A stretch of DNA of 64,000 bases from Sinohyriopsis cumingii (taxonomy: Eukaryota; Mollusca; Bivalvia; Unionida; Unionidae), in contig CM068835.1 of NCBI GenBank assembly GCA_028554795.2, positions 57,335,219 to 57,399,218 of the forward strand, written 5' to 3'. The notes beneath the pieces are model-generated. The model was not told where the DNA came from. It did not search any database and saw nothing but the letters and a program-made list of their open reading frames with translations. A program made the translations under genes and the position numbers. Positions 6,508 through 62,701 of this stretch are shown here, in pieces (position 1 is the first letter of the stretch; each line of letters starts with the position of its first letter).

Positions 6508-6755
6508 GTGTTGATCATCTTCCGCATCTCCTGGCGACGCTCTTATTCCTCTCAGCTGTATTGCAATGATAGCATCATTGCGTCACAACGTTTAATCGGC
6601 ATGCCTGGTTCTCTGACTTGTATGTGGAATTGCAAAAACAATATAGGAGACATGTATTTTTACTGTACCGATTACAGTGTGGATGAGGACTGGACCTCGG
6701 GTAGAAGAAGTTACAATTATTCTTTCCCAGATAATGATGAATTCTTTCAGTTTGG
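6508..6755 (+). CDS. Exon 1 (first visible): Cys/Trp-rich extracellular module, part 1
   Basis: The acceptor TTTTACAG is at 6501-6507. The open frame begins VLIIFRISWRRSYSS and runs to DNDEFFQFG with donor GG|GTACAT. Phase is 0 in and 2 out. Several cysteines and the signature LTCMWNCKNN...FYCTDYS...DWTSG recall, from memory, the opening of a module found in large predicted extracellular proteins of molluscs. An upstream exon must exist because no initiator or signal peptide is present here. The donor sits directly at the start of a TACA tetranucleotide repeat. A stop lies in the alternative phase-1 frame, which fixes the phase. Confidence 0.85.

Positions 6756-62701: not shown

Follow-up and report, generated by a model that had tools for sequence, protein, structure and literature searches.

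What kind of protein is encoded where a metazoan-looking module leads into a long series of bacterial-style surface domains and then into an RHS-like shell, and where did its bacterial-looking part come from? The question is raised by a 64,000-nucleotide stretch of the genome of the bivalve Sinohyriopsis cumingii (contig CM068835.1, positions 57,335,219 to 57,399,218), referred to here in its entirety as the window, on which a first-pass annotation had placed a gene of this description. We think it likely that the window contains the first ~60% of a gene for a member of a so far uncharacterised family of very large animal surface proteins that carry a captured bacterial block, extending from an array of CARDB domains to a DUF7619 domain, and that act in adhesion or recognition. 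The architecture up to the RHS entry, the first exon excepted, can be read from the window itself, and the part beyond the entry is assigned by homology to relatives. The distribution of the family is best read as eumetazoan.

The gene model in the window

The gene lies on the plus strand at 6508–62701, limits that the first-pass annotation had placed correctly at both ends, and consists of 17 exons that join into one open frame without a stop, with a product of 2498 residues. Intron phases are compatible across all 17 exons without exception, all acceptors are AG, and the donors are GT in 16 of 17 cases, with a single GC donor (5′-gcaagc at position 55724, following exon 12). Comparison of the window with six long relatives by tblastn, with the reversed window sequence compared as a control, gave 98 high-scoring segment pairs, every one of which overlaps an exon of the model on the plus strand, with none elsewhere. 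These account for 14 of the 17 exons, the unmatched ones being exons 6, 7 and 17. Exon 17 leaves in phase 1, so that coding continues past the window and the model is open at its 3′ end. At the other end, all four relatives that are complete there start with a signal-like stretch and an [ST]HFRG motif (as judged by eye and from hydropathy); a search of the plus frames at positions 1–6520 gave no such first exon, and the 5′ end of the model is thus incomplete.

The product begins with an animal-type N-terminal module (N-module) spread over five exons. The first (6508–6755; SWRRSY...CTDYS...DW) is supported by alignment and by tblastn matches from four of the six relatives, and the next four by alignment to relatives, phase and tblastn (exon 2, 7268–7443, FTGGDWIS...NSSP; exon 3, 19639–19742, VNDPDGDTVRCRWA; exon 4, 21854–22128, YAVAVQIEDF...PLSSIPLQFLV; exon 5, 32992–33156, VSPVGMAKS...FCFTAMDSLG). 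The short exon 6 (33525–33565; LATDQICIDLVGG) was placed by phase, splice sites and alignment to relatives, and precedes a Big-like domain, labelled by eye and not by Pfam, that starts in exon 7 (33898–33989; APPSITPG...FIVTFDQE; from alignment) and continues in exon 8 (42761–42944; FVRPITSRYIYI...YYILLDP; from alignment, phase and tblastn). The small exon 9 (50109–50186; GVIKGTTFCGLESPPINDKQFWTITI), which has tblastn matches from three of the six relatives, was added through alignment to the relatives, since these exposed a gap between exons 8 and 10. Among the Ig, HYR and FN3 segments proposed in the first-pass annotation, a bacterial-type Ig-like domain in exon 10 (50571–50825; Pfam, phase and tblastn) matches Big_13 at its cut-off and is followed by a Cys-containing Ig-like segment in exon 11 (53056–53343; phase and tblastn); the HYR/HYR_4C-like segments in exon 12 (54524–55723) lie below the Pfam cut-off, and the FN3-like segment in the same exon is recognised by eye.

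Exon 12 also contains CARDB 1 and the start of CARDB 2, which continues in exon 13 (55955–56065) and ends in exon 14 (56532–56722), and CARDB 3 starts in exon 15 (57385–57540), with exons 13 to 15 all supported by phase and tblastn. The largest exon of the model, exon 16 (58426–62222; 1265 residues), encodes the rest of CARDB 3, CARDB 4–9, PPC-like and IPT-like folds, another beta domain, a helical block, and the first part of the RHS entry (62125–62222; LWIKLDFERYVSPKLGLRSIYGPLGKTWISPYW). The product thus carries nine CARDB domains, where about nine had been counted previously. The second part of the entry is in exon 17 (62568–62701), supported by phase and by BLASTP, in which the alignments of the 16-exon version of the product (2472 residues) extend as far as its residue 2463 with protein P0077 and its residue 2471 with P0002. 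The segment 62125–62701 aligns as an RHS entry with both animal and bacterial relatives, as the first-pass annotation had suspected. Foldseek searches with a structure model of the window product returned mainly long arrays of multiple beta domains, at low TM scores.

The introns have features of their own. A reverse transcriptase fragment (RVT_1, 6.8e-9; 48676–49176, plus strand) lies in the intron between exons 8 and 9, and the frames at 44825–46270 are retroelement-like by eye, with no reverse transcriptase match in Pfam. Long TA dinucleotide arrays are common (e.g. 8330–8394, 46759–46843, 50002–50097 and 56795–56865), one of them stopping 11 bases before exon 9.

Animal relatives and the part beyond the RHS entry

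The relatives described here are the returns of word-based, length-limited searches, and imply no absence of the family from vertebrates or insects. A search with the CARDB half gave 34 matches, most of them bacterial-looking. The closest relative found is a protein of the freshwater mussel Sinanodonta woodiana (45% over 98%); a Mya arenaria protein matches at 30% over 87%, and P0003, with 3332 residues, continues into RHS repeats. The annotated Sinanodonta model stops at the splice point at the end of exon 16 and the Mya model ends shortly after it, so the annotation appears to cut the gene in these two bivalves. A search with the entry region of P0003 gave four matches (P0003 itself, P0035, P0036 and P0037), and P0035 continues to DUF7619, an EGF domain and a C-terminal membrane helix.

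A search with the N-module returned 46 matches, six of which are long proteins with CARDB, RHS and DUF7619, from Saccostrea cucullata, Mytilus californianus, Lineus longissimus, Anneissia japonica and Montipora foliosa, together with P0062. These match the 16-exon version of the product at 28–36% over most of its length, and each combines the CARDB array with all or part of the N-module in one predicted protein (the Mytilus and Montipora models begin inside the N-module), in agreement with the earlier proposal that the two halves of the gene belong together. The five proteins from named species each have nine CARDBs, an RHS shell, a core, a variable segment, DUF7619 and EGF, with a clear C-terminal membrane helix in three of them. 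The domain order, for which the first-pass annotation knew of no described animal example, is found in an oyster (Saccostrea), in Mytilus, in a ribbon worm (Lineus), in a sea lily (Anneissia) and in a coral (Montipora). The RHS repeats that it predicted downstream are present in the long relatives, the corresponding DNA of the window gene lying beyond the window. The named members that the searches gave are called uncharacterised or hypothetical, or are named after CARDB.

The remaining N-module matches are of a different kind. There are 36 (P0040–P0061, P0063–P0073, P0075, P0076 and P0082), mostly ENA proteins of 1421–2658 residues on contigs reaching 2.6 Mb, two of which have identical lengths listed, that match the product from the N-module through HYR at 33–38% identity and have no CARDB or RHS listed; perhaps they are a multigene family of one or a few animals. 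Many of them start at the beginning of window exon 1 or later, and the first exon may therefore be separate. In a sponge (Oscarella, P0079), two bivalves (Dreissena, P0080; Potamilus, P0074) and a fish (Labeo, P0083) the N-module precedes quite different domains, and it thus looks like a mobile animal module. Pfam scans gave it no name, with P0038 having a weak match to the N-terminus of integrin beta-like proteins A–E (21.1 bits, cut-off 28.1).

Beyond the entry, Pfam RHS_repeat is found in P0038, P0039 and P0003 (3e-25 in the last, which also matches Rhs_assc_core, TIGR03696, at 61.4 bits with a cut-off of 32.5). The shell runs into an RHS core in eight animal proteins, and DUF7619 follows the core in all eight. 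Within the self-cleavage motif of the core, the first catalytic Asp is present in all eight, the full first DPxG in three, and the second DPxG in six (P0078 has DANG, and P0038 nothing). The post-core segment is 129–244 residues long when measured from one alignment column, is weakly conserved, partly Gly/Ala-rich, and moderately hydrophobic in several members. The DUF7619 domains that follow have DPN[DE]I.GP-like and GFLPPN signatures, and at least one EGF comes after them in each of the seven proteins that reach that far (P0003 ends before). Four of these seven (P0035, P0039, P0077 and P0081) have a clear hydrophobic helix close to the C-terminus. An isopeptide bond involving Lys, Asp and Asn is predicted for DUF7619 in the available portion of PMC12617251; in our DUF7619 alignment, all 22 rows have a hydrophobic residue directly behind DPND/DPNE (P0036 has DPNRK), and we think that the isopeptide Lys has been lost in this subgroup, as judged from these rows without alignment to the published example.

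Origin, role and alternative explanations

Bacterial counterparts were sought with the core-to-DUF7619 alignment as query (an earlier alignment had no conserved stretch), and open reading frames (ORFs) were read at 34 of 80 loci, representing the best 80 of 121 stretches. This query favors DUF7619 loci, so the presence of DUF7619 in all 34 ORFs is by construction. CARDB, RHS, core and DUF7619 occur in the animal order in 16 of the 34, and records with the fuller order CARDB, PPC-IPT-beta, helical block, RHS, core and DUF7619 span several bacterial phyla, many of them being metagenome-assembled genomes. At least 2000 residues are collinear in the longest case (L001, 1319–3790). The bacterial giants (for example L001 from Anaerolineae, L006 from Clostridia, L002 from Crocosphaera, L003 from Nostoc, and P0036) share the CARDB-PPC-IPT-RHS-core-DUF7619 order with the animal proteins, but are single uninterrupted ORFs and, one weak match excepted, have no animal N-module; where the animal proteins have nine CARDBs, the eight bacterial proteins counted have 7–11 or one, and P0036 continues with Calx-beta and other domains, unlike the animal members. 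The DUF7619 of Anneissia is 45–47% identical to three bacterial-type DUF7619 domains. The collinearity of the CARDB-to-DUF7619 block with bacterial proteins lends strong support to the partly bacterial origin that had been suggested from the window, with the direction inferred.

DUF7619 also occurs without an RHS shell, in 14 of the 34 ORFs (L005, L011–L018, L021, L023, L024, L026 and L030), and the PPC-IPT-beta block precedes it in 13 of these, the exception being the incomplete L011. A common frame appears to accept several interchangeable inserts, of which the shell is one. In P0004, the domains listed include PF01764, a lipase family.

Two unrooted trees were built after removal of columns with less than 60% occupancy and without teneurins or SGS proteins among the rows; the window product, P0001 and P0002 were excluded for lacking the shell. 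The first has 29 rows and 1443 columns, with the PPC-IPT and entry blocks in 28 of the 29 rows, and the second has 46 rows including bacterial forms without RHS, with PPC-IPT in 44. In both, the animals form one clan against the bacteria with 100% ultrafast bootstrap. Rows from Clostridia and Anaerolineae branch nearest to the animal stem, but the branch leading to the animal clan is long, and no donor is singled out. A single gain before the cnidarian–bilaterian split is the simplest reading, and we infer that, earlier than that split, a bacterial surface protein contributed the CARDB-to-DUF7619 block, to which animal ends were added, bacteria being taken as the source from how widespread and varied their forms are. 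Bacterial contamination was considered and dropped, as the window is intron-rich and four relatives are on contigs of 21–165 Mb.

Transfer of a block is not the only way to arrive at this distribution. Separate assembly of CARDB, RHS and DUF7619 in animals, vertical inheritance from before animals, or movement from animals to bacteria would each accord with a single, fully supported animal clan on a long branch, given that unrooted trees cannot provide a direction. We regard these as distinctly improbable, since the domain order recurs in records from several bacterial phyla, so that separate assembly is very unlikely, and the frequency of shell-less DUF7619 forms fits a bacterial home. That the exons derive from two neighboring genes, or are unrelated exons joined in error, is scarcely credible: long introns with transposon remains such as RVT_1 at 48676–49176, a Sinanodonta model without the N-module and a Mya model that starts later still speak in its favor, but phases chain through 17 exons, all or part of the N-module is joined to the CARDB array in a single protein in six relatives, and no tblastn match falls outside the model. 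The principal competitor is a delivery protein, with a C-terminal cargo enclosed in the shell. Such a cargo would either be released by cleavage and passed into another cell, in the manner of bacterial Rhs effectors, or unfold into a membrane, which has been proposed for SGS1. The RHS shell fold of a bacterial relative, the partly kept self-cleavage motif, and the Gly/Ala-rich, moderately hydrophobic post-core segment of several members are consistent with such a role, but it is weakened, and in our estimate unlikely, because Pfam finds no toxin or enzyme domain in P0003, P0035, P0038 and P0039 and because DUF7619, EGF and (in four of seven) a membrane helix follow the core on the same chain, so that the tail would stay at the producing cell. 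A toxin cargo was not favored, on the Pfam result for these four relatives, along with the failure of a post-core profile to match bacterial ORFs.

Adhesion or recognition by a surface protein with a captured bacterial block is probably the function, a guess from domain type, our searches having met with no experimental work on a family member. The complete protein would consist of a signal peptide, the animal-type N-module, Ig/HYR-like domains, nine CARDBs, PPC-like, IPT-like and further beta domains and the helical block, and then the RHS shell, a core with an aspartyl self-cleavage motif, a variable segment of ~130–250 residues starting at the cleavage site, DUF7619, EGF, and often a C-terminal membrane anchor. 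The nine CARDBs may act as a spacer holding the N-module, a putative ligand- or partner-binding tip, away from the cell, with the shell near the membrane and tied to it by a tail whose path out of the shell runs through DUF7619 and EGF. Self-cutting of the core would separate the long-armed shell from the anchored tail as two chains in non-covalent association, and their joint could release a contact or signal when pulled; an eroded motif would make the joint permanent in the members that have one. The main role would then be in cell–cell or cell–matrix adhesion or recognition. Several points weigh against this interpretation. The RHS repeats of the window gene itself would lie beyond the window end, the relatives come from gene prediction, the self-cleavage motif has undergone erosion (as the counts for both DPxG sites attest), and P0038, P0062 and P0078 have no clear C-terminal membrane helix. 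Moreover, a profile of the post-core segment built from animals matched none of the 34 bacterial ORFs, and one of the animal N-module matched one, weakly, over 67 residues near the profile end.

Comparison with known RHS-shell proteins

The hollow RHS shell is best known in animals from teneurins and from mosquito saliva proteins, teneurins being the textbook example of an animal receptor made from a bacterial RHS protein. The family described here resembles teneurins in being animal surface proteins with a bacterial-type RHS/YD shell and EGF domains, and the idea that the window gene encodes a divergent teneurin deserves mention on that account. We consider it very improbable. A teneurin has an FN-plug and an NHL propeller directly before the shell, whereas here there are ~98 residues (product 2346–2443), predicted to be largely helical, between the last beta domain and the entry motif, too short for both; no NHL match was given by Pfam in P0038 and P0039. 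A teneurin has an N-terminal cytoplasmic part and a type II helix and terminates in Tox-GHH/TCAP, whereas the relatives have a signal-like start, have their clear helix, where present (four of seven), at the C-terminus, and end in DUF7619, EGF and an anchor or short tail, with GHH absent among their Pfam matches; the CARDB array is a further difference. By sequence, the shell of the Montipora protein P0081 ranks bacterial TLP and Rhs chains first, its best stretch with vertebrate teneurin-2 being in the EGFs and a second, weaker one within a lax limit; no teneurin matched P0039 up to E 10 or P0003 up to 0.01. In addition, the coral Montipora has a CARDB-RHS-DUF7619 protein, whereas the available portion of PMC6428715 reports that no diploblast has a teneurin. 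Teneurin membership was rejected on the propeller, which does not fit, and the anchor, which is at the opposite end. These observations uphold the first-pass suggestion of a non-teneurin RHS giant, with RHS repeats following in the long relatives.

Bacterial TLPs often bear beta-sandwich repeats such as CARDB before the superfold, according to the available portion of PMC6425310. In descriptions of TLPs (PDB 9ifo/9pt5), the shell is preceded by TTR, FN-plug and NHL, none of which was seen in the window family, and TLPs are absent from the matches listed for P0039 and P0003. The available portions of the TLP accounts PMC13018210 and PMC6425310 make no mention of DUF7619, and CARDB is not mentioned in those of the main text of PMC13018210 or of PMC3482391. 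Mosquito SGS proteins share with this family an RHS shell and a hydrophobic segment (PMC9935623, in the portion available), but for SGS1 that source names propellers, CBM/lectin domains and Tox-SGS, and no CARDB array; membership was rejected as Tox-SGS has no Pfam match in P0038, P0039, P0035 and P0003. No animal CARDB-RHS protein or family was described in the literature searched by title and start of abstract, a coverage mostly outside subscription papers and preprints.

We raise tentatively a more specific possibility, that this is a third animal lineage of RHS-shell proteins, independent of teneurins and SGS, in which a bacterial giant with a CARDB arm, a helical plug, a self-cleaving RHS shell and DUF7619, captured by an early eumetazoan, became a surface receptor with its anchor opposite to that of teneurin. 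The membrane tail from the in-shell cleavage site would exit through the shell and make of it a releasable, possibly force-sensitive cap. The protein might be used for contact recognition, in corals and other animals from which teneurin is reported absent and, beside teneurin, in other invertebrates. If so, a bacterial RHS protein has become an animal receptor more than once, the captured bacterial block is longer in this case (more than 2000 collinear residues), and the family offers a testable alternative topology for an RHS receptor, with the change from toxin-like shell to receptor open to comparison between independent cases.
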